Positions 5,534-56,100 of a DNA stretch of 64,000 nt are shown piece after piece (positions within the stretch are counted from its first letter, which is position 1; each line of letters starts with the position of its first letter). Source of the stretch: Chrysochromulina tobinii (Eukaryota > Haptophyta > Prymnesiales > Chrysochromulinaceae); assembly GCA_001275005.1 (NCBI GenBank), contig JWZX01003118.1, positions 1-64,000 on the forward strand. The letters run 5' to 3'. The notes beneath the pieces are model-generated. The model was not told the DNA's origin. It did no database searches and was given only the letters and a program-made list of their open reading frames with translations. The translations under genes and the position numbers were made by a program.

Positions 5534-5652
5534 ATTTCCGTACGTCCTTGATGTGGGTCGAGGACACGCCACTTTTTGGTTAGAGTCTTGTTGTCAGACA
5601 GGGCCGATGATTGTTCACAGCACAAACTTTCCACGTCGACGCGGTCACGATC

Positions 5653-12319: not shown

Positions 12320-13787
12320 TGCGCCGCCTGCTACCCTTGCCGCCCTTGCCTGCGCCGCTCACGGCCGGCAGTGGCTCGGCGACCTTCCAGTCGTCGAAGA
12401 GGCTCGTGGCGAGCAGCTTCGCCTCCTCGGCTGTCGATCCGCGGTGGTCGAGTAACGGCTGCACGTGCATGCGCATCTGACGAAACCCGAGCTCACTGAG
12501 CGTCATCAGGGGTCATCAGGGCTCATCAAAGGTCATCAGTGGCACTCACCTGACGAAACCCGAGCTCGAGCAGGCGTGCGTACGAGCGCAGCGCGAGGCC
12601 CGCCCCGATGACCTGGTCCGCCGCGCCGTTGAACGTGACGATGCGCAGCGCCTCGCGACCGGGCGCGGGCGCCGGGGTGACCGAGTACAACTGCCCAATC
12701 GAGCAGAAGAGACAATCAGCGGCCATCAGCGGCCATCAGCGGCCATCAGCGGCCATCAGCGGCCATCAGCGGCCATCAGCGGCCATCAGCGGCCATCAGC
12801 GACCATCAGCGGCCATCAGCGGCCATCAGCGGCCATCAGGCGAGATCGCACCTGCCCAATCGAGCAGAAGAGGCCGCCCAGGCACTCCTTGTATGTGAGA
12901 GCAGCATCGATCGCGCAGCACGATCCTTGCGACTGACCGAGCAGCACGAGGCGCGACGTGTGTCCCGACAGCCGTGCCGCCTCCACGTCGAGCACCCGGT
13001 GCACCTGCCTGCGCGTCCACTCGAGGTGCGCCGTGTCGAGCTCTTCCTCGAGCTCGGGCTTTCCCTCCTCACCGCCGTGGTCCGTGAAGTAATCATGCCA
13101 CGCCGCGTGCCGCTGCCGTGGCTCGCCATAGCATGAGATGCGCCGCTGCGGGGCCTGCAGGAAGACGAAGCGCACGTGCGCGTCGGGCGGCTGCTCGCTC
13201 GAGCCGAGCTCAGCGGAGAGCATCGGCAGCAGCGTCTCGGCGTAGTTCTTCGCGTTGTCCGTGAAGCCGTGCATCACGCTGCCGCCAACCGAGGGCACGC
13301 GGGAGATTCGGGTGACCCGTCAGACGCGCGGAGATGCCAGAGGATGTACTCTGGGCAAGGGGTGGGGCAGGTCGCGGGTTCGACGGCGGCTTCCGTACAC
13401 GACGGTCGCGCGGTGCACCGCCGTGGGCTCCACGATGTGCGGTGCGGGCAGCGACGCCGGCGATGCTTCGGAGGGGTACTTGCGAGCTGGAGGTCTATTC
13501 TCGGGTGCTGGGGCTTTGGCGGATGTGGCCTTGGCATCGATGGATGGTATCGGGTTCAGTGAGAGACCGATGAGTTTATCGAGAACTTCGAGCTGTCGAT
13601 CGTCCTCATCCTCATCATCAACGACCAAAGTGGCACCAGGTGCGGCTGCGGGCGTGGCACCCGGTGACGTCTTGCGATTGCGGCGCGGGCCTTTCCGCTT
13701 GCCGCCAGAACCAGGCGTGCGCGGCGTTTTCGAATCACCGGCTGTATTCGGCTCGGCGCTTGGCAAAAAAACCTCATTCTCCATCAT
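11883..13787 (-). CDS. Acyl-protein-thioesterase-like alpha/beta hydrolase with C-terminal C2H2 finger (4 exons)
   Basis: Inferred exons, in transcription order: 13399-13787, 12852-13278, 12550-12690 and 11883-12476, joining to 516 residues. After a disordered N-terminus comes ATVV-VMHGFTDNAKNY across the first splice (the LHGxGD-like oxyanion region). Then LVLLGQSQGSCCAIDAAL holds the nucleophile (Ser about 246), IVTFNGAADQVI the acid, and QPLLDHRGSTAEEAK the histidine. This is the order of the phospholipase/carboxylesterase family that includes acyl-protein thioesterases. Unusually, the last exon goes on through a poly-Gly tract (CCG repeat 12271-12318) and a Pro/Lys region to a single zinc finger, CAECGRQFGSEQGLARHRRE, just before the stop. 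Introns 2 and 3 belong to the decamer-repeat family and end in exact copies of the upstream exon end. The substrate is unknown; depalmitoylation is one option. Confidence 0.7.
12477..12549 (-). repeat. Decamer-type intron with an 18-bp exon copy at its 3' end
   Basis: Third intron of the thioesterase-like gene, 73 bp, GTGAGTGCC...TTTCGTCAG. The last 18 bp (12477-12494) are identical to the last 18 bp of the upstream exon (12550-12567). The middle is made of TGATGACC-type units. Confidence 0.8.
12691..12851 (-). repeat. Decamer-array intron with a 21-bp exon copy at its 3' end
   Basis: Second intron of the thioesterase-like gene, 161 bp. Bases 12721-12840 are twelve consecutive 10-bp units, on the sense strand GCTGATGGCC, with one unit changed at one base. 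The intron's last 21 bp (12691-12711) repeat exactly the last 21 bp of the upstream exon (12852-12872). Confidence 0.85.
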
Positions 13788-14047: not shown

Positions 14048-15547
14048 TCAAGTCCGTGCGAGCCCATCCAGCATCCTCCCCCTCGCGACCGCCGCGTCGA
14101 TGGCCGCCTTCTCCTGCGCCGTCAGCTCGAGGGCGAGCGCCCGCAGCGAGTCGCGTCGGTGGTCCGCCCCCGGCACGCCGCCGAGGCGCACGCCCACGAT
14201 CGCGGCGAGCACGTAGGGCAGCTGGAGCACGTACGCGAGCGCGACCACAGCGATAGGCGCGCCGCCGCGGGCGTCCACGTGTGCGTCACCCACAGAGCGC
14301 AGCGTGCGAAGCAAGCCCTGGAAACGCTCCCAGTCTCCCCACGCTCGAATCGACGCGAGGTAGTCGATTTGCTTCGAGTGGTCGGCGTCGGGTATCGGCG
14401 GCGGCTGACCGAGGTACCTGTCCGAGAGCAGCCCGCCCAGAAGTGGACCATACGCCACAAAGCGGCACCCGCGCGCCGCGCAAAAGGCGCGCGCCGCCTC
14501 TGCTGGTCTCACGAGTAGGTTCGTCTCTTGCTGCACGGTGGCGACCGGGACGACGCTCGCTATCTGCTCGAGCATCGCAGGGCTGTAGTCCTCCACGCCG
14601 TAGTGCCATACGCGCTGTGCGCGGCGCGCAGCCAGGTACGCGGCCAGGTTGGCCGATTGGAGGGCGGGAGGCCCCAGCTGTGGCACTCGATGGCACTCAA
14701 CGGCACTCAGCGGCACTCAGTAGCTATTAGCGGCACTCAGCGGCACTCAGTAGCTTATTTGCGGCACTCAGCGGCACTCAGTAGCTATTAGCGGCGGCAC
14801 TCAGCGCACCTGCACCCAGCGGAGTGCCTCCATCCCGAGACGCGCCTCGAGGAGTTCCAACCCTTGCTCCACCTCGTGCCCACGCTCAACAATGATCGAG
14901 TGCGCGAGCGGCACCGCCGCCGCAGTCTCGTTGGCCTTGGTCGCGCGTCGATGCGCTTCGAGGGCGGAGAGCACACGCTCGTCGAAGTCCTCGCCGATCC
15001 AGCTACCCAGCCCAACCGCGTCGTATCGGCGCATGCCCTCGACCACCCTGGTCGCGTCCACTTCGTCTAATGGGCTCGAGTACGCGCGCCAGCGCCGTGG
15101 GTCCAAGAAGGATGTCCAGATCCCATTGAGGATGGGGCAGATATGCACGGTTCGATCGCCATCACCGATTGTGCGCAGGTACGGCAGGCAGCTGGAGTTC
15201 ACGTCGTCCTCGAACTCTATGCCGTGCACGGCCGCGGCCGTGCCGCCGTCGCTCATGGCCACTCCAGCCGGCGCAGCGCGTGAGGTGCCGCCCGAGGCGG
15301 ATATGCTGTATGCTCGCGTGGGCGCGTCGGCAGCCGGGCTGTCGTCGGTGGCTCCGGGATAGCCGGCCTCGCCAGGCCGGCATAGAAACTGTGCGCCCGA
15401 ACAGCCACTGCACTCCATCTCAACTGCTCCATTTAGCACCGTACAAGGCTCTGTGCACCAAGGTTCGCAAGGGCCGCCATTGCGAACCTTGTAGCCATGG
15501 CATTCCGCTGCGAGCCACACGACCATCATCATGACCATGTTTGCCAT
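14048..15547 (-). CDS. Secreted/ER-routed aldo-keto reductase-like protein with Cys-rich N-terminal motif (2 exons)
   Basis: Exons 14810-15547 and 14048-14677 join in phase 0 to 455 residues. The ATG at 15547 is chosen because it opens a signal peptide (MANMVMMMVVWLAAECHG). Next comes a compact Cys motif, GGPCEPWCTEPCTVLNG...ECSGC...C, seen in many secreted algal proteins. The rest follows the order of the aldo/keto reductase fold: VHICPILNGIWTS, MRRYDAVGLGSWIGEDFD, LRWVQ joined to LGPPALQSANLAAYL, QRVWHYGVEDYSPAMLEQI, then VQQETNLLVRP and FVAYGPLLGGLLSDRYLGQP. The canonical catalytic Tyr and Lys are not obvious to me, so activity is uncertain. The intron belongs to the decamer family. Confidence 0.65.
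14678..14809 (-). repeat. Decamer-type intron of the aldo-keto reductase gene
   Basis: A 132-bp GT-AG intron (GTGCGCTGAG...GTGCCACAG). It is made largely of CTGAGTGCCG units on the sense strand, with a longer unit containing TAATAGCTACTGAGTGCCG recurring three times. Confidence 0.8.
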
Positions 15548-20897: not shown

Positions 20898-21064
20898 TAC
20901 TAGAAGGTGCTTTACTCCCCGCTGTGTTGGGCGAAACTTCCGAACGTCCCGCGAAACTACGGGTACAAACTTGATCGTTAGTGCCACTCTTCTCCGACAG
21001 TCTGCATTGAGGCGGCGAACCTCACTTACGTCAGGGGGGATCTGCGTCGGCACTGGGCAACACG

Positions 21065-35500: not shown

Positions 35501-38500
35501 CTCGAGCAATTATTGAAAGAGCTGACCCCGAGGCTGACCAAGCTGATGGCCAAGACACAAGATACGATCAAGCGCATCCTCACGATCCTCTTCGAGCTCT
35601 CCGTGTACTACCCAAAGGTGCTCCTGCTCAACACCGCCACGTTTGGGCGCCACGTGCGTACTCTGCTCACCGAGGTGTATGGCGGTGCGCGCGTGCAAGT
35701 CCTTGGCTGCCTCGAGCGCTGCGTCGAGCTCGAGGTCGGGAGCGCCACGCAGGAGGAGCGGCTGCGCGTGCGCATCCAGGACTTCGTCGCCGACGCGTCG
35801 CAGCGCTCGCATGCTCTGCACTCGCTCAACGCGTATGAACGCCTCTTGGCGCACCGGATTGCGGAGGAGCTCGGGCTGGTCTCAGAAAGCGCGTCTCACG
35901 GAGACGGCCAGGAGCGCTTCATCACCCTCTACAAGAGGGGCTCCGGAAACGCTTCTGTGCGCGCGCACGTGGCGCCGCCGACGACGCGGCCGGCAGAAGC
36001 CGAGGCCATGGACGTCGACGCGGACGGCGCACCCTCCTTTAAGGTGGAGCTCAGTACGAGGGAGCTGCAGCTCATCCTGCAGCAGCAGCAAGGGGATGTG
36101 CAGATCGCCGCCTTGCGCCTCGTGACTGCCTTTTGCAAAGCGCGCGGTGCGCTCGTGGTGGCGCCGTACGTGACCGTGCTCAACACGGCGTTCGACGGGC
36201 ACAAGGACAAGGAGACGCGTTCGTTGCACCTGCGTCTGCTGATGAAGATCCGCGAGGATCCGGCAGTCCAGATGCACTCGCCCGCGATGACGGACGCTGC
36301 GACGGCATCGCTGCTGCGTGGCCTGAGCGACCCTGATGAGGGAGCACGATGCGTCTCATGTGCGGCCCAGCATGGCGGCAGCGGCGGGCGGCCTGTGCCC
36401 GGCTGCTGGCGCTGCACGCAGGGGCTGCGCGCGGAGGTGGTCACCTTTTGGAATCAGAGCGTGCTCACGAACCAGCTGAAAGATCGAATGATCTCTTGCT
36501 TTGGCGAGCTGCATGCGCCCGCTGTCGAGTCGCGATGGCTGCACTACTGCGGCGTGCTGATGCTGCAGCTCCCTCTCGACTCGCCGAACGCGGGCACGTG
36601 CACCACGCCACCGCTCGTCGATAAGGACGGCAAGCCGATCGCCTTCACGACCAACACGGCCGCCGTACCGGATGCCAATTCGTCCTCCGTCGCCATGCGC
36701 CCGTGGGGCTCACTGTCGCAGTCGCAGTCGTCGCAGGATGACGGGGGCTTAGGCCCATTGCGTGCCACGCAGTCGCAGCGCCTCTTCACACAGACGCAGA
36801 CGCAGGGCGGCGGCACTGGCGGCGTGGGACTCCCCATGACTTACTCGACACAGGACGCCTCGGGGTGCCCCGATGGTGTTGTGGGGCACGGCCACTCGGC
36901 GCGTCGCCCCGCCCGTGCCCCTCTTCCACCCGTCCTCGGCGTCACAGGCTCCGTCGGCAGCGGCGGGCGGCGCGGTGGCCTCACAGGGCGACCGCTCCCA
37001 AGATGCCTTCTCGCAGCCGTTGGGGTCGCAGGCCCCCGATGATGTGGCGCTTGGCAAGCGGTTCAAGCCCAAGCTTGCCTCTGGCTCGTCCGCCGAAGTG
37101 AACCTCGTCGCCCTCCGCCGCTCGCGCGCCCTAGCCGCTACGAGGCGCAGCGGTGCGGCGGTGGGAGCCTTCCGCACAAATTACCGCAAGGGGGAGCTGC
37201 CCGACGTCGAGATCTCGCCACGCGACATGCTCTTGCCTCTGCAGGCGCTCGTGCACCACGATCCGCTTGTCGCCAAGCTGACTTTCACACAGCTGTACAC
37301 CACAGTACGTCAACAGTTCTCGGCCGACTCCAAGGCGATCGAAGGGTTGCATAGAGGCGTCACGTCGCTCCTGGCCTCGCGGCACGGCGGGCCGGCCTTC
37401 GTTGGCTGCTTGCACGAGCTCGCTCTCTCCGAGCAGCACGAGCTCCAGTGGCTGCCCGCTGAACTCGTGGCCGAGTCGGCCAAGGCGAGCGGTAACCTAC
37501 ACTCGGGCATCTTGATCCTCGAGCAGCACCTCGCCCAGAGCGGAGGATTCGAGGGAGGACGCGGCCACGCAGACGGTGGAGCCGCCGAGGATGCGGAGAA
37601 CAGCGGCGGGCGCAAGGCGAAGCGCTCGCGCGATGTTGGCTCTACCGACGCTGGGTTCGCGGGCTCTCACGAGGCACGCCAGCGAGAGATGCAAGTCAAG
37701 GCCCAGCTCGCCGACCTGTACCGTGCGATTGGGGACGAGGATGTTGTGCGTGGCATCTCGTCGGAGATGGCCACCTCCGAGAACGTGCGGCGCGCTCTGG
37801 CTGCCGAGACGCGCGGAGATGCCTCCGAGGCTTTGAAGCACTACGAGAAGGCGCGCGCGCCGAAGGATGACGCCATGTTGGGCGCCATGGACGGCAGCAC
37901 CGGCAGCTGGAGCGCTGCGAGCGGCGCCCTCGGTGCGCTCCCTGAATGGGAGGCGAAGCTCATCGAACGTGGCTCGCTCGAGGCGCGTTCGCTGCTCGGC
38001 ATGGTGGACCCCAAGGCAAAGGACGCGCTGTTGAAGCTGTGGACACACGTGGCTCAGCAGACCACGGATCGCATGATCCACACGTGCGAGCCGTCTGTCG
38101 CGGCACGGCCTGGCGCAGCTGCTGCCCGTGCGGCCAGCAGCGATGCTCGCGGTCCGATGACGTTTGAGGGCTCGCTCTCTGAGGGCTGGGTGCGGACGTG
38201 GATCGTCGCGAGCGCCAAGGCGGACGGCGCGCAGAAGGCGATCGGATGGGGTGTGTGGCCCAATGAGCCCGCCGGCGCTCCGTGCCCGCAGCGCGACACG
38301 TCGCGGCTCCTCGATGCTGGCCACGGCGCGCTGCTACTCCTCGACCGCTTCGCCGTGGACGACCTGAATGCAATCCGCGCCCTGCTGCCTCGGTGCGCGC
38401 ACGCGTTCGTGCGTCGCTGGGCGACGCTGCACCCATTAGCCGAGCAGGCGCGCCTCGCCGAGCTGCTGCCGCTGCAGCTGCTCACCGAGGCGGCGGAGGT

Positions 38501-41500
38501 GACGAGCTTGCTCGAGGAGGCATCCACCTTGAGCGAGGACCCGATCAGCGGCGCCGTCGGCCAGTCGGCCGAGTTCACCAACCTGCTCCGCGCGTGGACC
38601 CAACGGCTCCCTTCGGTCACGCACCACAACACGAGCGTGTGGGACGACTTGATCTGTGCGCGCTCACGTCTGCTCGCCACGCTCCACCAGGCGACCCAAG
38701 AGCGCCTCAAGAGCTTCCAGTCGGGCCGCACCTTTGTCGACGGGCCCCAGCAGGCGACTCTGCTCAAGGCGTTCGAGCGGGAGCGAAACCGAGCGATGCT
38801 AACGCTGTATGAGGCGGCCGCCGCCGCCACGCGCGACCAGGGCAACTTTGGCGCGGCGGAGTCGTACATACGCGAGTCGGGGAACCTCCGACGCACCCTC
38901 GGGCTCACCAAAGACGACCCGTCGTTTGCGTGCTCTCTCTACCGTCTCATGCTGCAGCGCGAGCAGGCGCGCAGTGCCGAGGACGGTGGCGGTTGGAGCA
39001 AGACGCTACGGACGGTGCACACTGACGCGCAGCGCGTGGCCGCGCTCGTGGGCACCAGCGGGCCGAATGGCACGGCAGCCTCCCCGGCGGAGGTGTGCGA
39101 GCTCCGCACTGTACAAGCTTACGTGGCCTGGGAGCTCGCCGCATTGCCCTCCGCTGGCAGCGGGAGCAGCGCCGAGCTCACGGCGGGCGGCTCAACAGCG
39201 AGCGATCTCGTGCGTTCGGCATACGACCTGCTCAAGCAGAATGCGTCGCAGGCAGAGGGCCTGGGCTCGACGGCGGCGGACCTCAAGCGCCACGCGGCGA
39301 TGAGGCTTGAGCTCGTCGACCTCATCGACAAGGTCCTCACGTCGCCGAGGGCCGAGCTCTCGCCCGACGCGCTGCGGCTGCACAAGGCGGAGCTCACGGC
39401 GGTCGCGATTGAGCAGGTGGTGCGAGCGATGGCGGCTGGCTCACTCGCGGCTCGCGAGCGGCTGCCCTCGGCGCTTGCGCTCTGTCGTGGCGCGCCGGAG
39501 CTTTGGGCGCAGGCGACGGAGCTGCTCGAGCTGCCGCCGCTCTGGATGTCTCTCGCGTGGGCTCCGCAGATGATCGCCATGCTGTACGAGCCGCACGGCA
39601 CGGTGGTCGCGCCGCTGCTGCAAAAGCTCACCGCCGCCTACCCACAGGTGATTGCCTTTGATTGCCTTTGATTGTCTTTAATTGGACTTGATTGCCCCTC
39701 GATGGTCTTTGATTGCATTTGATGACCCTCACCGCCGCCTCCCCGCAGGCTCTCTACTTCCCGTACCACGTGTCTCGTGCCGCGCTGACCAAGGAGCTCA
39801 AATCCTCCGAACAGGCGCCGGGCGATGAGTCGGTCGCACCGCGGGCCGCCGCACTGCGCGCGATGGACAAGGCGCTGAGCTCGCCCATCATCGAGCGGCT
39901 CGTGGCGGGGCTGGCCGACCTGACGCACCCACACCTGCGCATGCAGGACTTGCTCAAGGAGCTCGTCGCCAAGCTCGAGGACGGCGACGGCGAGGGAGCG
40001 GCCGCTGCGTACCGGGCCGAACGCGCCGCATGGTTTGTGGAGCGTAAAGGAGCAGATGGCAAGGATGAGCGCGGCGACATGGTCATCAGCTTCGCCAAGC
40101 AATTCGTGCCGATGCTCGACGCGGTCTGCGGCAAGGACGGCGACAAGCTCAAGGTTGGTGCACCAGCCCTCAAGCCGCTCAGGGACGCGATCAGCAGGCA
40201 CATGAGCGCCGACATTCTCAGGGAGTGGGAGCTTCAGAGGGAGCAAAAGGCGTTTCGTCCTCATCAGGACGGCTCATCGCCGCTCAAGGCGCTCTCCTCC
40301 TTCCTCGCCCTCTACCAACGCTCCGATGCGGCCGCCGAAGGGCCGCTCGACTTCCTCGAGCTCCCCGGCCAATACGCGCGCGACACGCCGCCGCAGCCGA
40401 GCACGCACGTACGCCTCGAGGGATTCGCGCCGACGCTCCGAACGATGGCGTCGCTCCGTAAGCCCAAGTGCATCGTGCTGCATGGCTCGGATCAGAGGGA
40501 CTACCGCTTCCTCGCCAAGGGGGGCGAGGACCTCCGAATGGACCAGCGCGTGCAGATCCTGTTCGGCTCGATGGACCGCGCGCTGCACGCGCACGCGCCC
40601 GCGTCCAAGCGCGACCTCGGGCTGCGCACGTACGCGGTGTTGCCCCTCTCGGAGCACGTTGGCATCATCGAGTGGGTGCCGGACACGGAGACACTCAAGG
40701 GCCTGATCTCTAAGGAGGCCAAGGTCCATCCGATGGGCAGGGGCCCCAAGGGCGAGCCGTGCGATGAGATGGCGCAAGGATTTTACCTGACGGAGCTCTA
40801 CCCTCGCATCAAGGGCGACGCGACGGACTACCTCGGCAAGCTCAACGTGCGCCGCGAGAAGCTCGCCGCCAAGTTCACCGAGATTGTGGAGAAGGTGCCT
40901 GCAGATCTGCTCCAGCGCGCCGTCCACAAGCGCTCCGTCTCGTCCGAAGTGTACCTGGCGATGCGCGCGCGCTTTGCACGCTCCCTCGCGACCCTCACCG
41001 CGTGCATGCACATCCTGGGCATCGGCGATCGTCACCTGGACAACTTTTTGCTCCACACGCCCACGGGCAACGTGGTGGGCATCGACTTTGGGCACGCGTT
41101 CGGGTCGGCGACCTACCTTCTCCCTGTGCCGGAGCTCATGGGTGTGCGGCTCACGCGCCAGATCACAACCTTCCTGCGCCCGCTCGACACGCCGGTGCTC
41201 CTCAAAGGGCATATGGAAGTGACGCTCGAGGCGCTGCGTGGCCGGCGGGTCGACCTTATGCGCCTTCTCGAAGTCTTCCTCTCCGAACCCATCGTCGACT
41301 GGGAGGCCCAGACGCGTAAGCTCTCCGCTGAGCAGCGCAACAAGCTCGAGGCCGAAGCAGTGACCACTCAAGAGGGCGGGGCTGCCGCGCTGCTCGTCGC
41401 CGGCTCGGCCGTGCCCGATGCGGCGGCGCGTGGCGGCGTCAGCACCAGCTCCGGCGCCGCCCACGGCGGCGCCCACGGCGCCAGCATCAGCAGCGCTGCT

Positions 41501-41854
41501 GCGGCGGGTCGCAGTGCCAGCCGGCCCGGAAGCCTCGCGCCGGGGGGCACTGCCGTGACGCTCGGCTTCACTCGCAAGTGGGCGCATGAGAGGCTCCGTG
41601 CGGTCGAATGCAAGCTGCGCGGCGGCAACTCGGCGAAGCTCACGCTGCGCGACCTCGAGGCGTCGAATAACGGACACGTGAAGAAGGCGCTCGCGTCGCT
41701 CGAGGACGTGGTGCTCGGCCCCAATGGCTCGCGCAGAAGGGAGTGCGCGGCCGAGAACCTGACGGTGGCCGAGCAGGTCGACGTACTCATCGAGCAGGCC
41801 ACCGATCCGAACATCCTCGGGCGCACGTGGCAGGGCTGGGCGCCGTGGCTGTGA
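26573..41854 (+). CDS. PRKDC: DNA-dependent protein kinase catalytic subunit (DNA-PKcs) homologue, about 5,000 aa (3 exons)
   Basis: Inferred exons: 26573-36880 (the donor may be 3 bp earlier), 36948-39647 and 39749-41854, giving about 5,037 residues versus about 4,130 in human. MEVGRHLEEL at 26660 is an alternative start. A long HEAT-type helical region fills exon 1. Near its end is an SQ/TQ cluster (LSQSQSSQDD, RATQSQRLFTQTQTQ; 36711-36830) that continues in exon 2 (SQGDRSQDAFSQPLGSQ). Then YRKGELPDVEISPRDMLLPL opens the FAT region, close to the human ..GDLPDIQI.. block. The kinase has KPKCIVLHGSDQRDYRFLAK (about 40460), KVPADLLQRA, ILGIGDRHLDNFLL with catalytic D and N (about 41020), and GIDFGHAFGSATYLLPVPEL. 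The gene ends in FATC, ATDPNILGRTWQGWAPWL. The active-site residues exclude TRRAP, and KVPADLL plus GHAFGSAT favour DNA-PKcs over ATM, ATR or mTOR. Its role is NHEJ signalling with Ku (family knowledge). Confidence 0.88.
39648..39748 (+). repeat. Decamer-type intron of DNA-PKcs with an exon copy at its 3' end
   Basis: A 101-bp GT-AG intron inside the FAT region, made of TTTGATTGCC-type units. Its last 21 bp (39728-39748) match the last 21 bp of the upstream exon (39627-39647) at 19 positions. Splicing gives AYPQ-ALYFPYHVSR, the conserved FAT reading. Confidence 0.85.
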
Positions 41855-42610
41855 AGAAGGTCGAGCCTAAGAAATACGATTGTGACTTAGTAGTTTGGTA
41901 GAACGCCCCGGGTACCGTAACAAATTACGTTTCACTACAATAACAGTCACTTGACGCTCATCGACATCACCCGGTAGGAAGCGCTATCAACGATATCTTG
42001 GAATCTACTCCCACTCAGGCGCACAAGTGCAGGCGCGGCGGCGAAAAGCAGTAGTACAGATACGTACGGTCCTCGGTCGACTGTATGCGGGTATGCTCAT
42101 CCGAGGTCATCAGGCATGATATGCTCGACCCATGATATGCTCGACTGTATGATATGCTCGACCCATGCCCAAACCAGCCAAGCTCAGCAACCGCCGATCA
42201 AGTACTGCTCAGACACCACACCGTCCATGAGCACCACAAGTACGCTCCCCACGTCGCCTTCATTGAGATCCAAGGCACTCGCGTCGCTCATGTGAAAACC
42301 CATCTCCATCGCCCAACGGCCAGCTTCCCCTTGCCATGCCCAACCACTGCAGCCTCAGCATGCCATTGAATTCATTCTCAATGCCAGCGGATGGATGACG
42401 AACCCCCCGGCGGATGACGAACCTCGGCGGATGACGAACCCCCCCGGCGGATGACGAACTCCGGCGGATGACGAACACCGGCGGATGACGAACGCTCTCA
42501 CGTTGCTTGGTCGTGGTGAGCAGTTCGAGCACTCCCGTTGCATGCAATTGGAATGCACGCGTGGTGGGCCGAAGAGACGAGCTCTCACCACCCAGACGAG
42601 TTGATGCGAT
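41855..42610. repeat. Convergent intergenic region with two minisatellites
   Basis: It separates the 3' ends of DNA-PKcs and SulP. About 42116-42165 holds three copies of ATGATATGCTCGAC spaced 16 bp apart. About 42387-42494 holds six copies of GCGGATGACGAAC with C/G-rich spacers of 4-7 bp (the first copy carries an extra GGAT). No coding signal was found apart from that. The second array lies in the likely SulP 3' UTR. Confidence 0.7.
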
Positions 42611-45600
42611 CTAAATGTTGTCGAAGTGGTCGAGGACGGTCAGATCTTGAGCGGAGGACGATCTCGGCATCTTGAGCTCCTTAGTCGAGTGGTTCCGAAA
42701 GTCCTTCGCGTGCTGCAGCTGATTGGGTGCATGCAATGAGGGAGGCAATCAGCATGCAATCCGAAAGTCCTTCGCGTGCTGCAGCTGATTGGGTGCACGC
42801 ACGGCGGTATCCATCAGACGAGGGCGCTCAGCATGCAATGAGGGAGGCAATCAGCATGCAATCATCGCTCACCATATTGATTGCATGCACGGCGTCGCCA
42901 ATCGAGAGGAAGACCCAGCTGGCCTCATTGCCACACTGGTGGGCGACCTTGGAGAGGAGGCCCGAGCGCACCAGCGACCTGATGAGGGAGATCATCAGTG
43001 AGACGTCGTCAGAGGTCATCAGTGACGTCGTCAGAGGTCATCACTTGAGATCAAGGGAAATCATAGGCAATTAGCGTACCCCATGACGGAGTTGTTAGGG
43101 CCCGTGATGGTGAGGATGACTCCGCATGCATTGAGCTGTTCGGTGAAGCAATTAGAGGCAATTAGAGGTAATCATAGGCAATCAGATGCAATCGGAGGCA
43201 ATCAAGGTACCTGCTCGGTCAGCTCGGTGGCTAATCATAGGCAATCAGATGCAATCGGAGGCAATCAAGGTACCTGCTCGGTCAGCTCGGTGGCTAATCA
43301 TAGGCAATCAGATGCAATCGGAGGCAATCAAGGTACCTGCTCGGTCAGCTCGGTGGCCGTCTGGATGAAGGTCGAGTCGACAAAGGGCACCGCGCACATG
43401 TCGAGCACTACGCCCTTGATGAACTGGCAATCCGTCACCTGATGAGGGAGGCCATCGGGCGTCATTAGAGGTCATCAGAGGTCATCAGTGATCATCAGAG
43501 GCCTTCAGAGGCCATCACCTTGGTGGTGATCATGTGCGCCAGCCTCGGAGCGTTCCCAAAGAAGAGGGTGCCCTCTGGCTTGACGATGTAAATGTCCTGC
43601 GCAGGCGCCGCGCTCGTGTACTGCGAGACGGGCGCGTACTGTCCGGAAGGCATCCGGCCCAGCTCGTACCTGATGAGGAAGGTCATCAAAGGTCATTAAG
43701 GAAGTGGTCATCAGGGAGGCGATCAGTGTGGTCATTAGGGAGGTCATCAATGGTCATCAAAGGCAATTGAGGCAATTCGGCCATGAATTATGCAATTCGA
43801 GGCAATTCAAGGCAATTCGCGTGGTCATCAGTGGTCATCAGTGGTCATCAGTGGTCATCAGTGGTCATCAGTGGTCATGAGTGGTCATGAGTGGTCATCA
43901 GCGTACGTTGGCGAGAGGATGTTCTCGACGAGCAGCACGAGGAAGGAGGAGCTCGCCCCGATGAGCAGGCCTATCTCGACGCCGAGGAAGAGCACTCCGA
44001 TAAACGTGGTCACCTGATGAGGGAGGTCATCCGAGGGTCATCAGAGTGCTCATTAGAGGCAATCCATCGAAATCCATCGCAATCAGTGCCCACCCAGATG
44101 AACGCATCCTTGACGCTGTTGACCAGCAGCCACTTGAGGATTCCGAAGTCGATCAGGTTCTGCAGCGCGATGAGCACGACCGCCGAGAGGCAGTTTTGGG
44201 GCAGATAGAAGAAGACCTGATTGGGGAGGCAACATCGAGGTAGTCAGAGGTCCTCGTGGCAATCAGAGGTTATTCGTGGATGAAATTCATCTAGAGGGTG
44301 GGCAGCACTGATCTAATTAGGGAGGTGATCAGAGGCAATCAGAGGGTGGTCAGCACTTACGGGCGCGATGGACGCAATCTTGGTGATGATACCCACGAGG
44401 ATGGCGACGACGAGCACGGAGATGGGTGAGGTGGCCCCGACTTCGTCATTCAGAGCGGTCCGCGAGAAGGAGCCTGAGATTGGGTAGCCTCCGGTGATGG
44501 CTGAGAAGATGTTGGCGAAGCCAAGCGCGACGTACCTGATGAGGCAGACCATCAGTGGTCATCGGGCGTCATCAGAAGGTCACTAGACATCATCAGAGGT
44601 CATCAGAGGTCATCAGAGGCAATCAGAGGCAATCAGGAGCGACGTACTCCTGGGCCACGTCAGAGGTCATCAGTGGCAATCAGAGGCAATCAGAGGCAAT
44701 CAGGAGCGACGTACTCCTGGGCCACGTCGAGAGTATTGGGGCCGAGGTGGGTATTCTTTTGGGCCATGAGCTTCGCGATTGCAATCGACTCGAGGGACAT
44801 GACGATCGTGATGACGAACCTGATTAGGGGAGGCAATCTCAGGTCATTAGAGGTTCTCATCAGGGGCTCTCCGATATGGCTCGATCGTGATGACGAACGC
44901 GTTGATCAGCAACTCCCCCGAGGTGTGCTTCTCGAATTGAGGCCGAACGAAATTGGGAGGATCGCCGAATTCTCCGACGATTCCGATGCCACGTGTCGAG
45001 GGCCACGGCGTGAGGACGTACCTGATGAGGGCGGCCATCCGTCGTCATCAGGCCATTAGAAGCCATCAAAGGCATTAGAGGCCATTAGAGGGAGTAAATG
45101 GAAATAAAGCACGTACGAGGTGTTCCGATTGTCAATCTTCTTTGGCATCGGGACGCAGCCCGGGTTGTCCTTTCCGGGATAGTATCCGGTGATGATTCCT
45201 TGGAAGTTGACGGCGTACCTGATGACGGAGGCCGTCATATGCAATAAGAGGCAAATAGTGACTCTGTAGGGAAACAGCCCACGGCGGCCAGCGGGGCGGG
45301 GACGTATGCTCGCAATGAGTGGTAATCAGTGGTAGCCAGTGGTAGTCAAGTACGTACTAGTACTTGATCTTGGAGCTCGTGTTCCAGGCCTTTGCGTTAA
45401 TCAGTGGTACTCAGTGGTACTCGTGGTACTCATCAGTGGTATCTCTCAGAGGTAATCAAGTACGTACTTGATCTTGGAGCTCGTGTTCCAGGCCTTCGTG
45501 TTGTTCACAATCGACGGTACGAAGATGTTTGCGACGTTGGTGACCTGGTCGTAGTGCTCGCATCTGCCCAATTGGGGAGTTAGGGAGGTGCTCTCAGCAT

Positions 45601-48046
45601 GCAATGAGGGACGCAATCAGCAAGATGCCCGCGGATTTCGCACCCCGGGCTCAAGTAGAGCTTCGACTGCCACGTCACCAAGATGGCGATGATGCAGACC
45701 AGGATCGGGCCGATGAACTTGAACGGCTTGAAGACGGGAAAGCCGTACGCCTAATTAGGGATGCAATCAGCATGCAATCAGCGCAACTTGGGCCCCTTCA
45801 TCCGGCCAAGCTTCGGGTTAGGTGGGGATGCGATCAGCATGCAATAGCATGAAATTAGCATGCAATCGGCGCACCTTGGGCCCCTTCATCCGGCCAAGCT
45901 TTTTGAAGAGAAAGAGGAGACAGAGCCAAACGACGGCCGTCCTGCGAGCCCATCAGAGGCCATCCGATGTCATCCATTGGCAATCAGGGGTAATCAGGAG
46001 CAATCAGTGGCAATCAGTGGCAATCAGAGGCAATCAGAGGCAATCAGAGGCCGTCCGATGTCATCCAGTGGCAATCATCGGAGGTCCGATGTCATCCAGT
46101 GGCAATCAGCGGAGGTGAATCGGGAAGAATCGGGGAAATTCGCACCATGAGGCCAACCCGTTGACCGTCGAGGCGAACTCGATGAGGGAGCCGACGATCA
46201 TGTGGAGGGTGCTTACATTGGTCACATCGCGGCTGAAGCCAAAAAAGGAGCGTAGCTGTCCGAGGCCAATTGTGATTGCGGCGGAGGCTGAGAAGGCGGA
46301 GATAACGGGAGGTGCGAGCAGCTCGAGGATGTATCCGAATTTGGTCACCCCGATGACGAAACTGAAGACGCCGCAGTAGAAGGCGAGCAGGCTCGAGATC
46401 TCGACCTGACAAGGGAGGCAATCAGAGTGTCAACAGAGGGTCATCAGAGGGTCATCAGAGGGTCATCAGAGGGTCATCAGAGGGTCATCAGCATCATCAG
46501 TCGTCATCACCTGCTTCGTGATCAGTGCGGACTGCGCCTCGAGCGAGTTCCACAACGTCTGATTCGCAAGACCGGCAAGGGACGAGTTGGTGGACGCTGC
46601 GACTGACATGCTATCCGCGAGCTTTTTGAGCATGTCGTAATTTGCCTGATGAGCAAGGGTCGAGGTCATCAGAGGGCATCAAGGAGATCATCAAGGGAGA
46701 TCATCGTGGAGGTCATCAGGGCGGTCATCTGGGAGGTCATCGCGGAGGTCATTACGGAGGTCATTACGGAGGTCATCAGAGGTCGTCAAGGAGGTCATCA
46801 AGCTATTGACTCGCCTGGTCCTCAGTCACTTGAGACGCGATCGTGTCGAACGTCAGGAGCGACACGATGGCCACGGCTCCAATCTGCAGCTGCCTCGAAG
46901 TACCTAATGAGGAAGGCGGAGGCCATCAAGAGGCCATCAAGGGGTCATCAGGTGACAGCGATGAGCGTACCAAATATGACGTACATGAAGAGAGGTGCAT
47001 AGTCTGAGTAGAGTCCGCGGATGGCGGGCAACCCAGCGATACCCGCGTACGAGAGGCCCTGTGGCACGATGAGGAGGCTCGCAATCAGAGGCAATCCGAT
47101 GCAAGTAGCGGCAATTTGTGGGCATCAGCAGACCTGCGGCACGATCAGGAAGCTCACCTGTAGCATACACAGACACAGCGCACAGTGAAAAGAGTGCGGG
47201 GGGAGTGCGGGGGGACTGTGTGAGCCTCGGCTGCTCACGGCAAAGCCAGCGCAGATGTCAGGGACGAGCTGCCTCTTCACATCGTACTTGACCAGCCATC
47301 GCAGACAGGGGAAGAAGGACACCTGATGAGGGATGCAATCAGCGGTTGATCAGGAGGCCAACGGGAGGCCATCAGGAGGCCATCAGAGGTCGTCAGAGGT
47401 CGTCAGAGGTCGTCAGTGGCCATCGGACCTGATGAGGGAGGCTATCAGAGAGGTCATCAGAGAAGTCATCAGGAGACCATCAGAGGGACCTCAGAGAGGT
47501 CATCAGAGGTCATCGGACCTGATGAGGGAGGTCATCAGAGGGTTCTCAGTGGTCATCAGTGGCCATCACCAGCACGCTCCAGAGCTTCTGCCGGGGAGTG
47601 TTGCCCTCGGGCTTGAGTTTCTCGAGCGTCCACCTTGCCATAAAAGGGATCCCAAGCGCGGGCTTGGCGACGGCGTCGGGGGCTGGGGTACCGCCGGAGG
47701 CGAGCAGCGACAGCTCATACTCGGCCATCTTCTTCTTCGTCGTCTTGTCTGGCAAATTCAGGTGGTCCATGACGGCCGAAGTCACCAGAGGTCACCAAGG
47801 AGGTCACCAAGGAGGTCACCAAGGAGCTCATCAAGGAGGTCATCAAGGAGGTCATCAAGCTAATGACTCACCTGGCAGGTGCAGGTGGTCCATGACACTC
47901 GCCGACCGCGGGTTGTACACTGCAGGATTGAACTGATTACGGACGCTCAAGGGGCTGGGAGTATCGCGATCGCGGATCTTGGGCTCGTCACCCGCAAGCG
48001 TGCCGGCCGGATCCTTTGCCAGGTCCATCTCGCGTGCCGACGTCAT
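42611..48046 (-). CDS. SulP/SLC26 anion transporter with STAS domain (22 exons)
   Basis: Exons in transcription order (plus-strand coordinates): 47872-48046, 47570-47748, 47239-47322, 47134-47157, 46971-47058, 46815-46903, 46511-46645, 46158-46405, 45875-45941, 45644-45750, 45468-45563, 45117-45218, 44899-45021, 44715-44819, 44361-44535, 44094-44216, 43907-44013, 43519-43669, 43337-43438, 43080-43135, 42873-42978, 42611-42718. They sum to 2,550 nt, 849 residues, with phases agreeing throughout. Recognisable parts are FFPCLRWLVKYDVKRQLVPD, IVPQGLSYAGIAGLPAIRGL, YVIFGTSRQLQIGAVAIVSL, NIFSAITGGYPISGSFSRTA (family signature), FFYLPQNCLSAVVLIALQNL, then STAS with IYIVKPEGTLFFGN and VVLDMCAVPFVDSTF. 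SulP proteins move sulfate, bicarbonate, molybdate or other anions; the substrate here is open. The start ATG (48046) follows an in-frame stop 21-24 codons upstream. Confidence 0.85.
42719..42872 (-). repeat. SulP intron 21 with an internal copy of the next exon's start
   Basis: A 154-bp intron. The 37 bp at 42695-42731, spanning the acceptor and the start of exon 22, recur identically at 42761-42797 inside the intron (period 66). The rest is TGATTGC/ATGCAAT-type sequence. Confidence 0.85.
43136..43336 (-). repeat. SulP intron 19: 63-bp tandem repeat carrying exon-end copies
   Basis: A 201-bp intron. A 63-bp unit repeats with its edge at 43205, 43268 and 43331. Each unit contains a copy of the exon 19 end (the sequence for ATELTEQ) directly followed by GTACC, so two extra donor copies lie inside the intron. 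Confidence 0.85.
43670..43906 (-). repeat. SulP intron 17: pure decamer array
   Basis: A 237-bp intron. Bases 43821-43900 are eight consecutive 10-bp units (plus strand GTGGTCATCA, sense TGATGACCAC), two with one change. The intron ends in TTCCTCATCAG, and the next exon repeats the donor start GTACG. Confidence 0.85.
44536..44714 (-). repeat. SulP intron 14 with a 28-bp copy of the exon-intron junction
   Basis: A 179-bp intron. The 28 bp at 44701-44728 (end of exon 14 plus donor) recur identically at 44634-44661, period 67, with the adjoining GGCAATCAGA decamers also duplicated. Confidence 0.85.
45219..45467 (-). repeat. SulP intron 11 with a 33-bp exon-end copy
   Basis: A 249-bp intron. 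The 33 bp at 45464-45496, spanning the exon 11 end and donor, recur identically at 45360-45392 (period 104). TGATTACC-type decamers lie between the copies. Confidence 0.8.
45751..45874 (-). repeat. SulP intron 9 with a 27-bp exon-end copy
   Basis: A 124-bp intron. The last 27 bp of exon 9 (45875-45901) recur identically at 45787-45813 (period 88). The copied junction has TT instead of GT, so its donor is dead. Confidence 0.85.
46646..46814 (-). other. SulP intron 6, inferred GC-AG intron
   Basis: The phase-0 join TEDQ-ANYDML requires the donor CAG|GCGAGT and the acceptor CATCAG|GCAAAT. No GT gives the same frame nearby. The interior is TGATGACCTC-type repeats. Confidence 0.65.
47323..47569 (-). 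repeat. SulP intron 2: three head-to-tail GT...AG units
   Basis: A 247-bp intron. On the sense strand it is three successive blocks, each starting GTGATGG or GTCCGATG and each ending CCTCATCAG (block ends also near 47517 and 47427). Every block is filled with TGATGACC-type units. Confidence 0.8.
47749..47871 (-). repeat. SulP intron 1 ending in a 25-bp near-copy of the upstream exon end
   Basis: A 123-bp intron. Bases 47749-47773 (intron 3' end) match 47872-47896 (exon 1 end) at 22 of 25 positions. The interior is TTGATGACCTCC and TTGGTGACCTCC units. Confidence 0.8.
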
Positions 48047-51902: not shown

Positions 51903-53096
51903 ATGGACGAGAGTAGCGACGATGACGGCGATATACCTTTAGTGTTTCGGCGACGTTCTCATCAGTCGACCACTTCGGCCACGTTGCGAACGCCGCAGCC
52001 AGACGCACCGCCCGAGATCGAGTGCGCGTCCTCCTCTGGCGCGGTCGCGCCCACGCCGGCGAGTGCGCGCGCGCCCGCGCCGCCGTCTCCGCCCAGGCCC
52101 ATGCAGGTGGAGTCACCTGTACCGCCTGCGTCGCTTGTGCCGCTCGTGCCAGCCGTGCCGCTCGTGCCACCCGTGCCTGCCGTCTCGCTCGTGCCGCTCG
52201 TGCCGTTCGTGCCCGCCGTGCAATCTGTTCACGTCGCATGTGCCGTTGGAAGCTCGCTGCTGTCGGCCCCGCCATCTGCAGCTTCGGCCACAGCAAAAGC
52301 TTCTCTGTGTGCCCCAGCCGCCGCAACCCACGAGGCCTCAACACCTGCTCCAGCCGGCATTCCCCCAGCCGCAGCAGCGCATTGCCCTGCTGCCGCTGCA
52401 AACCTTGCGGCCGCGTCTTCAACCGCCATGGCCGCCGGAGCAAGTGAGGCCTCAGCCAGCACCCTCGCCGCGGCAGCGGCTGCGGCAGCCGCCAAGGCCG
52501 CCGGTGCGAATGAGGGCACAGCCAACGCCATCGCAGCGACAACTTACACTATCGCAGCGACCATATTCTCCAACGGGACCAGTGCTGGCACCAATCCTGG
52601 TACCAGTGCTGCCCCTGCTTCCTCTGCTGCCGCGAGCGTGAGTGGCTCAATCCCAGCCCAGGCCGGTGCGGCGTGCACTCAAGTGACGCCGGATGCAGAA
52701 ATGAGGGCAAGAGCTGCACCGGCTGCCGAGCAAAGTCTGCAGCTTGCGAATCTCGGTTGCAGTCTACGTTGGCAACATCAGCCGATCAGCCATGCACACG
52801 AGGTCGCCACCGCCTATACGGCAACAACCCCTCCTGCAACCGCGGTAAAGCCACCAGCTTCTCAATTGCCGATCCAATTGCCGATCCAATTGCCGATCCC
52901 GTCAAACGTGGTGGCGGCGGCGGTGCAGAGCCACTGCAGTTCACTGCAGTGGGCCTGCAGTGGGCGTGCTGCAGGGTGCAGCACTGCACCAGGGTGCAGC
53001 ACTGCAGTGGCTCAGCATGCAGTGGCTCAGCATGCAGTGGCTCAGCATGCAGTGGCTCAGCAGCATCAGCATCAGCAGCAGCAGCAGCAGCAGCAG

Positions 53097-53142
<46 letters not shown>

Positions 53143-56100
53143 AGCGCTCCTTCTCAATGTGTGCAGCCTTGCGCGCGCTCTCGGAGGCCCCGCGACCGCT
53201 GGTGCACCCTGGTGCAGTGCTGCACCCTGGTGCAGTGCTGCACCCTGGTTCAGTGCTGCACCCTGGTGCAGTGGTGCACACTGAAGCACGCCCACTGCAG
53301 TGGCTCAGCAGCACTGCAGTGGCTCAGCATGCAGTGGCCACTGCAGTGGCTCAGCAGCAGCAGCTGATGCAGGTTGAGCTCGTGCAGAATGTGATGCTCC
53401 AAGGGCGTGAGGCATGGCGGCAGATGGTGGTGCTCACGCAACAGCTCGTGCTGCCAGGCCGATGGGAATCAGCTACGGCCGAAGTGGAGAAATTCCACAC
53501 CAACATGCAGCAGTTCGCCGTCAAGAACGCGGAGTTTATCGCTGCGCAGGCGCTGCAGCAAACGCGCGTCAAAGAGCGTGATGCCATTGCCAAGGAGCGC
53601 ACAGATATGCTGCTGGCATACGCAGAGTTCTCGAGCGTCTCCCAAGCTCTTGCACAAGCTCTGAGAGCCCAAGGTGACACATCGAGGGGAGCTGCAGAGT
53701 TCATCAGGCAGGCCTCGATCAGGCAGGCATTGATCTCAAAGCTTCAGAATGCGTGTCGTCTCATGGCAAGATATGAGGCTGGAAAGTGGCATCTCGAGAT
53801 TCTAAAAGCCAATACTCAACGTATGGACTTGAACACTCAGGTTGTAATGGCATCTGAGTTAGCACGCGGCAGAGTTGACTTGCTCGAGAAGCGCGAGGTC
53901 GAGCTGGCATCGTTGGTGGTGCACCACCATCCTAGGCCGGTGGCGCCAGCGCCGCCGCTGCTCATGCGACCCATCCAAATGATTTGCAAGACCCGCGAGG
54001 CGGGGCTGTACAAGCTGCTCGATGAGCTCCTTGACCAGAATGTGGCCATGCAGACACGGGTGGTTGCGGATGATGGTTCCGCTCTGTTGCCAAATCTGGA
54101 TGCGTTCAACTTCGCCAAGACGCATATCTCGGCTGTGCTCGCTTCGGGGCTTCTCGTCATGGCTGCAGAGCTTCGGATGTCTTGGTGGGTGAAGCTGCAT
54201 GTTGAGCTTGTGGTCGCGTACACGCTCACCAGAGGCGTGCGACTTGGCCCGGAAGGTCTCGAGAAGCTGCCGCATGCGCCGCAGCCGGCCGACGAATCGT
54301 ACAGCCGTCTGCACGATTCCACAGCCGTGACGTGCGCCGTGCACCACGCGTGGCACCTGGCGACGGCGCTCGAGTGCGGGCTATGGCGTCGCCTGGGCAA
54401 GACCTCCCTGATCCAGACCGCGAATGATAATGTGGCACTCCGAGCCTTCTTCGCTCGACAGTACGAGCCCAAGCTGGACGCTCTCTGCCGCCGGGTGCAC
54501 CAGTCGAACGTGGGGGTGCTCGCGGCGGCGGGGCTGACCGAGAGACTGCACGCAGCGGCCCTGCACTCCATACCCATCGACCATGCGAAGCTGATGAGCG
54601 CCCTCATTAACGAAGCCTGCCGGACGTCTAAGCCTCCGCCCGTGACGGCGCCGGTAGCTAAGCCTCGGCCGGAGTCGACTCCGCCCGTGACGGCGCCGGT
54701 TGCCGAGCCGCCGACCCCACCTCCTGGGAAGCCACATGGGCAGCCAGAGCAGATGGTGGTGGAGTTAGACGATTCCGAGGACGAGTCCCCTTCGCCTACG
54801 GCGGCGGCAGCAGGAGCGGCAGTAGCTACGGCATCGGCGATGGAATTGCGCCGCATGCCGAGCGCTGTGCCGGGCGTTCCGGACGTGCCGCGCGTTGTGC
54901 CGGGCGTTCCTGACGATGTGCCGGGCGTACCGAACGCGCCACACGCTGTGCCGGGCGTACCAGACGAGCCGAGCGCCCGCCGCCTCGCTCTCGTGCTCTT
55001 GAAGCATCGGCGTCCATGCATCGACTATCTTCTCTCGATGCATCAGCGAGGCTCACGCTACCAAGTTGGGTCCACCGCGCTACTAGTGAGACTCACGCTC
55101 GAAGATTTGGTATCGACTTTGAGTGGTGTCTGTGAGCTGAGCGTGGACCAAACGGTACACTGCCTTGGGCTGGCGGTGCTGAACCACGTGGAGCAGCAGC
55201 AGAAGCTCGAAGAGGCGGCGCTCAACCACGTGAAGCAGCAGCAGCAGAAGAAGCCCGAAGAAGCTCGTGAAGCGTACGCGTTGAAGATTCGTCAAGCCGA
55301 GGCCAAGGCTGAGAAGGCCAAGGCTGAGAAGGCCAGGCTGGCCACGAGGTGGGCCAGAGAGAAGGCAGCAACGACAGCTGCCAAGACGGCTGCCAAAATG
55401 GCCTCGGAGACGGCTGCCCAAATGGCCTTGGAGACGGCTGCCCAAATGGCCTTGGAGACGGCTGCCAAAATGGCCTTGGAGGCTGCCGAGGAGCGTCTGT
55501 GGACCGGCTCGCCGGACAGCGTGGCGGGCCGGTTGCTTCATGAGTCGACGGGATTGGTACGTGGCTCTCCCTGATTGCCTCTGATGAGCTCTGATTGCCT
55601 CCCTCATCAGGTACGTGGCTCTCCCTGATTGCCTCTGATGAGCTCTGATTGCCTCCCTCATCAGGTACGTGGCTCTCCCTGATTGCCTCTGATGAGCTCT
55701 GATTGCCTCCCTCATCAGGTACGTGGCTCTCCCTGATTGCCTCTGATGAGCTCTGATTGCCTCCCTCATCAGGTACGTGGCTCTCCCTGATTGCCTCTGA
55801 TGAGCTATGATTGCCTCCCTCATCAGGTACGTGGCTCTCCCTGATTGCCTCTGATGACCTCTGATGACCTCTGATGGCCTCTGGTGGCCTCTGATGGCCT
55901 CTGATGGCCTCTGATGGCCTCCCTCATCAGGTACGTGGCGGCGTGCCCACCTTGTGTGGGCTCTCCCTCTTGGCCCTCGCCCGGCGCCGTGTCTCCACAC
56001 CGGACTTCCCCACAGAGGGCTATTCCCCACAGGGCTATTCCCCACAGTGCTATTCCGCCCCCCCACTCGACGAGTTCCGGGCGAAGGAGATCACTCGCGC

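Follow-up and report, generated by a model that had tools for sequence, protein, structure and literature searches.

An estimated several thousand predicted introns of Chrysochromulina tobinii are built from a ten-base unit, many ending in a common 3' block, and were probably born by insertion

The window examined here, that is the whole stretch of 64,000 nucleotides from position 1 of contig JWZX01003118.1 (assembly GCA_001275005.1; window G+C 63.8%), includes a gene for a SulP (SLC26/SULTR-like) transporter whose 2.6 kb of coding sequence is broken by 21 introns, against two predicted in about 15 kb of the adjoining DNA-PKcs-like gene (Table 1). Splicing of SulP at these introns would yield an open coding sequence of 853 residues plus stop; the product matches the Pfam domains Sulfate_transp (7.3e-68) and STAS (1e-11) and aligns through several junctions (e.g. 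LIVPQ/GLSYA, IFG/TSRQL) to the solved plant sulfate transporter SULTR4;1. Predicted borders are GT-AG in 20 of the 21 introns and GC-AG in one, as in spliceosomal (U2-type) introns, and predicted removal restores a conserved coding frame. With one mismatch allowed, 18 of the 21 contain at least three matches to a decamer of the pattern nCTGAnnrCC, and 20 at least two.

An earlier note on this DNA had named SulP and four other genes (the AP2 gene, thioesterase, aldo-keto reductase and DNA-PKcs) as carriers of this repeat. All five do carry it where the note placed it, and GT and AG do stand at the intron borders that it gave for the latter four. In the DNA-PKcs-like gene the PI3_PI4_kinase and FATC domains lie downstream of the array intron. 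The 54-bp unit of the AP2 gene is in itself a complete mini-intron, having a possible splice site at either end, and is present in 7.2 copies over 55556-55939 (TRF). The further claim that the conventional introns of the window lack the decamer holds for four of the six checked, which have no match (EF-hand 16720-16831, DNA-PKcs 36876-36960, 13279-13398, SulP 47158-47238), but not strictly for 25236-25369, with one match, or 20832-21034, with two; since 14.7% of random 150-base exon pieces reach two matches, that number by itself is weak evidence.

Table 1. The SulP gene, its predicted introns and the other array introns of the window (matches are to the decamer).
Feature	Position	Strand	Remarks
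SulP (SLC26/SULTR-like) gene	42611..48046	-	22 exons of 24-260 bases, 21 introns
SulP intron, exon-end type	47749..47871	-	last 25 bases repeat the preceding exon's last 25, with mismatches; 2 matches
SulP decamer intron	47323..47569	-	19 matches; 3' block repeated internally
SulP intron without decamers (contrast)	47158..47238	-	0 matches
SulP intron	47059..47133	-	last 22 bases repeat the end of the preceding 24-base exon, with mismatches; uninterrupted in both paralogues
SulP decamer intron	46904..46970	-	end is CCTTCCTCATTAG; site uninterrupted in paralogues
SulP decamer intron	46646..46814	-	reads as GC-AG
SulP decamer intron	46406..46510	-	11-bp units
SulP decamer intron	45942..46145	-	12 matches; uninterrupted in paralogues, weak alignment there
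SulP decamer intron	45751..45874	-	site uninterrupted in paralogues
SulP intron	45564..45643	-	2 matches
SulP decamer intron	45219..45467	-	GTACG at start and right after; holds copy of upstream exon piece
SulP decamer intron	45022..45116	-	end is CCGCCCTCATCAG
SulP decamer intron	44820..44898	-	first 17 bases, GTTCGTCATCACGATCG, exact copy of next exon's start
SulP decamer intron	44536..44714	-	11 matches; GTACGTCGC opens both intron and next exon; uninterrupted in paralogues
SulP decamer intron	44217..44360	-	site uninterrupted in paralogues
SulP decamer intron	44014..44093	-	end is CCTCCCTCATCAG; site uninterrupted in paralogues
SulP decamer intron	43670..43906	-	14 matches; GTACG opens both intron and next exon
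SulP decamer intron	43439..43518	-	end is CCTCCCTCATCAG
SulP decamer intron	43136..43336	-	two extra copies of own exon-intron junction; 63-bp exact tandem, 43169-43357
SulP decamer intron	42979..43079	-	end is TCTCCCTCATCAG
SulP decamer intron	42719..42872	-	TGCATGCTGATTGCCTCCC type; 3 matches
Thioesterase-like (Abhydrolase_2) intron 1	12477..12549	-	decamers; 18-base exon end GAGCTCGGGTTTCGTCAG exact at intron end
Thioesterase-like intron 2	12691..12851	-	13 decamer units; 21-base exon end CTCTTCTGCTCGATTGGGCAG exact at intron end
Aldo-keto reductase intron	14678..14809	-	CTGAGTGCCG units; spliced protein matches Aldo_ket_red 1.6e-18
DNA-PKcs-like gene intron	39648..39748	+	TTTGATTGCC units; 21-base exon end at intron end, 2 mismatches
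AP2-gene intron	55557..55930	+	54-bp unit GTACGTGG...CCTCCCTCATCAG in tandem; last copy with more decamers

A scan of the whole genome, which the earlier note had proposed as a check, counted 5136 places in the assembly (53.15 Mb, 2253 contigs; 2550 forward, 2586 reverse) where three exact units of CTGANNRCC follow one another in phase, against 8 for the same pattern read backwards. Arrays of at least three units were then counted in the window and 20 other stretches, two of them (L010 and L011) picked for holding arrays and one (L009) adjoining the window; L003, L004, L005 and L007, being overlapping copies of L002 and L006, had been dropped beforehand. There were 62 arrays, compared with 2 after local shuffling that kept base composition and 1 in reversed sequence. 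Chance or base composition as the source of the arrays is ruled out by these controls, together with that for the 3' block described below (626 against 0). In arrays of at least four units, 548 of 660 steps measure 10 bp, 71 measure 11, 24 measure 12 and 17 measure 13-14 (mean 10.26), in keeping with the ten-base, sometimes eleven-base, units first described; with head-to-tail units of 10-12 bp, homogenised locally, the arrays are minisatellites. The assembly-wide number of arrays is estimated at about 4400 from their density in the 17 stretches not selected for arrays, and at 5500-6500 from the ratio to the exact-pattern count, both estimates resting on few arrays (14, 28 and 42). We put the predicted introns of C. 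tobinii built from this unit at several thousand. Distribution is patchy: 12 of the 17 unselected stretches have no array and one has 8. Viral contigs gave 1 and 2 short decamer matches, which look like chance, and no longer array, and a prokaryote genome collection gave no match to a decamer array. Strict avoidance of AG within arrays can be set aside, since about 10% of units are CTGAG and AG is thus present inside them. The same assembly has an AT-rich contig (37.6% G+C) with the Rubisco large subunit gene, rbcL, which from its sequence and matched entries we take to be of the red type.

Arrays were placed relative to genes with a model blind to the repeat and run on both strands jointly, which still fuses some same-strand neighbour genes; one-strand models, which merged genes and made arrays of the window wrongly antisense, were discarded in its favour. 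Predicted sense introns hold 134 of 154 arrays (28 of 28 in the window and L009, 12 of 14 in the 17 unselected stretches, 94 of 112 in array-selected stretches), and antisense introns none. Four of the others lie in sense exons, two in antisense exons and 14 between genes, all 14 belonging to the array-selected set, whose stretches are mostly short. Under two other parameter settings sense introns hold 121 and 106 of the 154 and antisense introns again none, with 26 and 41 arrays between genes. Arrays equally common in intergenic DNA, which the earlier note had said would refute an intron class, are not seen here. The TGA of each unit and the ten-base step, which carries it through all frames, make arrays poor coding sequence anyway, so that the model is hardly able to put them in exons, and the value of the placement lies in the strand result and in the scarcity of arrays between genes.

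Units differ by 1.37 mismatches per 10 bases within an array, by 2.59 between arrays of one locus and by 2.72 between loci. The impression that each gene has its own variant is therefore right as to local homogeneity but not as to the gene, the variant going with each array. By their sequence the arrays look as though they have grown in place rather than been copied whole. Whole mini-introns are also repeated in tandem, as in the 54-bp unit of the AP2 gene; elsewhere, contigs 2060, 807 and 107 among them, the 3' block recurs every 66-70 bp.

Many array introns end in CTGATTGCCTCCCTCATCAG or a near variant. In the whole assembly the 22-mer CTGATNRCCTCCCTCATCAGGT, which is this 3' block followed by GT, occurs 626 times, a 28-mer with the same end 93 times and a 33-mer 23 times on 18 contigs, the control count being 0 in each case. 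SulP and the AP2 gene, in which a common 3' end had first been noticed, both have CCTCCCTCATCAG ends. The block can be read as splicing signals, with a branch-point-like CTGAT placed 16 bases from the end, then a run of pyrimidines and finally AG. In a sample of 89 sites with CTCATCAG directly before GT, chosen with the preceding sequence disregarded, 80 have TGA at -19..-17. The decamer CTGATTGCCT is the first half of the block, and arrays often pass into it without a break. Of the array introns located with the gene model, 23 of 77 end in CATCAG, which is absent from the 12 commonest ends listed for 64 introns without decamers. The 20-mer block is also an imperfect palindrome with arms of five bases (CTGAT/ATCAG), which lie inside the block and not at both ends of the intron. 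The 5' ends of the listed elements are ragged and differ from one another, and unit variants differ between arrays, while the 3' block is common. The piece common to loci is, on these comparisons, a putative 3' splice-site block of 20 bases more than it is the decamer array.

Copies of exon sequence are found at the edges of array introns. Among 47 distinct introns whose CATCAG end follows a decamer-like unit, 17 open with a copy of the start of the next exon at a score of at least 9, against 0 in swapped pairs; the 47 were obtained from 54 sites by removing repeated exon starts, and candidate donors directly behind a TCATCAG were left out. Of these copies twelve measure 11-28 bases and five, flagged by their length as whole-intron duplications, 34 or more; four of the five enter array sequence and are for that reason likely to be joint duplications of intron and exon, and the fifth (L048) looks like exon. 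When array flanks were compared directly, leaving out arrays less than 100 bases from the start of a stretch or less than 160 from its end, 26 of 100 had a flanking repeat scoring at least 14, against 0.2% of swapped pairs; a second pass with slightly different flanks gave 32 of 100 scoring at least 11, of which 9 were decamer-like and 23 were not. In a second kind of intron it is the end that copies the end of the preceding exon, exactly over 18 and 21 bases in the thioesterase-like gene, and with mismatches over 21 in the DNA-PKcs-like gene and 25 and 22 in SulP. Other exon-end copies are of 14-23 bases, and one intron (L034) has a copy of 6 + 13 bases around AG/GT. The 11 exon-end or mid-type introns identified all lack the CATCAG end. 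Copy lengths overall are mostly 8-28 bases, one being about 40, with no single length of the kind that would characterise the target duplication of a DNA-transposon introner.

When the best coding frames on the two sides of a junction were compared, they matched in 15 of 20 exon-start cases scoring at least 8 (13 of 15 without the copies of at least 34 bases) and in 11 of 11 exon-end cases, one with misplaced borders, where chance would give 1 in 3; in this test the borders of thioesterase intron 1 were off by 1 and 10 bases and its copy length there was 0, the 18-base copy being read from the sequence. At junctions set by the gene model alone, 13 of 155 decamer introns have an exon copy scoring at least 10, where swapped pairs reach 0.19%, as do 2 of 79 introns without decamers. 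Most decamer introns thus carry no exon copy at such junctions, whether through age or misplaced junctions. Array purity was tried as a clock and set aside, as purer arrays keep copies only weakly (p=0.04) and array-derived repeats are mixed in. The trace that repair of a staggered break would leave, exon sequence from one side of the intron repeated directly at its far end, is seen in 17 of 47 introns against 0 and in the 11 of exon-end or mid type, but at only 13 of the 155 model-set junctions.

Contigs 1346 and 1320 of the same genome carry two paralogues of SulP, each a single open frame (552 and 549 codons, respectively) free of arrays. At 8 of the 21 SulP sites (residues 146, 154, 183, 344, 367, 544, 603 and 644) they are uninterrupted, by which we mean that the alignment spans the junction, shows no intron and has gaps in no more than 3 of 24 columns; identity is 8-12 of 24 at residues 146, 154, 183 and 544 and 2-6 of 24 at the other four. 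At the remaining 13 sites the paralogous proteins align poorly or not at all. Since the paralogues are 27-45% identical to SulP, absence of the introns at those sites is demonstrated rather than their recency, and the comparison does not date the gains.

On balance, judging from these sequence features, the predicted introns probably form a genome-wide class born by insertion, in which staggered breaks in exons would have taken in a 3' splice-site module, the array then growing locally. A short module of this kind, or an array piece holding it, would be captured at a staggered break whose filling-in would copy mostly 8-28 exon bases to both sides of the insert. Where the insert brings the AG, the GT would come from the copied exon start, and where it brings the GT, the AG would come from the copied exon end; the copied exon piece would in either case give the missing splice site, so that splicing would return the original message. 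The array would then lengthen in place through slippage of the branch-point-like decamer and tandem duplication of whole introns, growth that would be tolerated, since a branch-point-like CTGAY is present in most units and the tract need not keep any coding frame. The inserted DNA could come from another array or have been copied from intron RNA. Such a process would act as intron gain by break repair with an introner-like common insert.

Of the mobile or self-expanding intron class that the earlier note had proposed, what survives is a class that is genome-wide, on the sense strand, with a common 3' block and flanking duplications derived from exons; a mobile element with fixed ends finds no support, given duplications of no fixed length (mostly 8-28 bases), ragged 5' ends and arrays that look locally grown. 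A more specific version of insertion, on present evidence rather doubtful, is that the 20-base branch-point-plus-acceptor block itself breeds introns, being copied into broken exons throughout the genome without a transposase and taking one splice site from exon duplicated at the break, its branch-point half growing into the decamer array and the resulting mini-introns multiplying in tandem. If this were true, break repair with a preference for one filler that amplifies itself would yield intron gain as a by-product.

Four other origins were weighed against capture at breaks. In the first, the source would be a non-autonomous introner of the DNA-transposon kind, bounded by short inverted repeats (CTGAT...ATCAG), which a transposase moved and decamers later filled. 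The common end at unrelated places, evident in the 22-mer, 28-mer and 33-mer counts, is what this would produce, as is the imperfect palindrome of the 20-mer, and one splice site comes from the duplicated target in known introners as described (PMC9860276). We nonetheless think it unlikely: duplication length is not fixed, being mostly 8-28 bases where the introner families reported earlier have 3-9 bp (PMC9860276), 5' ends are ragged, and the 11 introns of exon-end type are without the CATCAG end.

Those same ragged 5' ends are less of an obstacle to insertion by reverse-transcribed intron RNA or by a LINE-like machine that copies a 3' end into nicked exons. LINE target priming leaves a precise 3' end, a ragged 5' end and duplications of variable length, and these are the traces found here, copies of varying length being left by this route as by capture at breaks; passage through intron RNA would besides account for the sense-only placement. 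Selection for a working AG/GT accounts equally well for the precise 3' end, however, and the exon-end introns do not have that end, which leaves this origin quite improbable.

It is also conceivable that no intron was gained at all, and that old ordinary introns were invaded by a minisatellite spread by slippage. Homogenisation array by array would follow, and most decamer introns do lack an exon copy at model-set junctions. Against this, exon-start copies abut the upstream exon, with frames that agree across the junction in most cases, and slippage does not account for the common 3' block, nor for the CATCAG end of 23 in 77 array introns, an end missing from the commonest ones listed for the 64 without decamers; we regard such an invasion as very unlikely. 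Pure tandem duplication of an AGGT-holding exon segment (the Rogers model), for which copies spanning AG/GT such as that of L034 might be cited, is highly implausible, as the bodies of the listed introns are decamers and not copies of the neighbouring exon, and as arrays and a 3' block that are found genome-wide, common to different places and unrelated genes, cannot copy each gene's own exon.

The class described here shares features with several known systems. Nearest in effect are introners, described in Micromonas, Aureococcus, Symbiodinium and a Chrysochromulina MAG (Gozashti et al. 2022, PMC9860276), and the likeness in spirit that the earlier note drew to them fits: as in that account, many similar introns lie across unrelated genes of one genome, the target is duplicated at the flanks, and the duplicated target may supply one of the two splice sites, whichever the orientation. 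Compared with the introners described there, the body here is a 10-bp tandem array, the duplications are mostly of 8-28 bases and varied, it is mainly the 3' block that is common, inverted ends are not clear, and similarity of copies from end to end looks doubtful. The survey as described removed low-complexity families by hand (PMC9860276), so that a decamer-array class would likely have been dropped from it, and similar classes may be overlooked elsewhere. Neointrons of Daphnia pulex attributed to repair of staggered breaks resemble ours in their exon-end repeat, its variable length and later internal duplications (PMC4202315); the repeats given there are of 4-12 bp, here up to 28 bases or more, tandem arrays go unmentioned there, and the insert here, unlike those described, carries a common splice-site block and decamers. 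Introns attributed to tandem duplication, such as that of potato RdRp (PMC4974935), likewise draw a splice site from a duplicated exon piece and leave the message unchanged, whereas the intron here is mostly not duplicated exon. The introner elements of Amoebophrya also have direct repeats across exon/intron borders and genome-wide spread, but are described with inverted repeats of 8-20 nt, direct repeats of 3-5 nt and mostly non-canonical splice sites (PMC7789003), where SulP has 20 GT-AG introns of 21 and one GC-AG. A literature search over the titles and abstract openings of the matches listed, covering few subscription journals, turned up no paper on decamer-array introns.

How spliceosomal introns come to be born in large numbers has long been asked, and most of those gained cannot be traced to a source. 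One genome appears here to hold introns of many ages with one recognisable source, array-rich genes adjoining intron-poor ones as SulP adjoins the DNA-PKcs-like gene, and intact exon copies would mark the recent events. If the likely origin by insertion is the true one, the birth of introns would be open to direct study in this genome.

The decamer introns, which are predicted introns built of tandem units of about 10 bp, are strongly patchy between genes: the DNA-PKcs-like gene (26573-41854) has two predicted introns in a coding sequence of about 15 kb, whereas the adjoining SulP gene (42611-48046) has 21 in 2.6 kb. Two of the three copies of the 63-bp tandem in SulP lie within the intron, with a possible 5' splice site in every copy; most of the 24-base SulP exon recurs, in diverged form, at the end of the intron that follows it.

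Single features in and near SulP (window positions)
Feature	Position	Remark
17-bp tandem, unit GGATGACGAACCCCGGC	42393-42493	intergenic, two flanking genes
63-bp tandem, 3 exact copies	43169-43357	spans SulP exon-intron border
SulP intron	46646-46814	GC-AG borders, not GT-AG, as read from sequence
24-base SulP exon	47134-47157	encodes VSFLIVPQ

Long open frames surrounding the AP2 gene contain long tandem duplications (258/291 bp) and repeats of 9-18 bp (58283-59085 and 52132-53360).

Across the arrays of all sampled loci, decamer unit spacing averages 10.26 bp; the helical repeat of nucleosomal DNA is about 10.2, a closeness that is possibly due to chance. Contig 2186 of the assembly, sampled outside the window, carries rbcL (488 aa) at a contig G+C of 37.6%, and is likely a plastid contig.

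In another sampled stretch (L053), an intron with the CATCAG end common to many array introns is filled by a 14-mer, GTGACGAACCCCTC, similar to the 17-bp intergenic unit, though the reading frame disagrees across the chosen junction. Judged from these repeats, the same kind of intron may be occupied by another unit as well.
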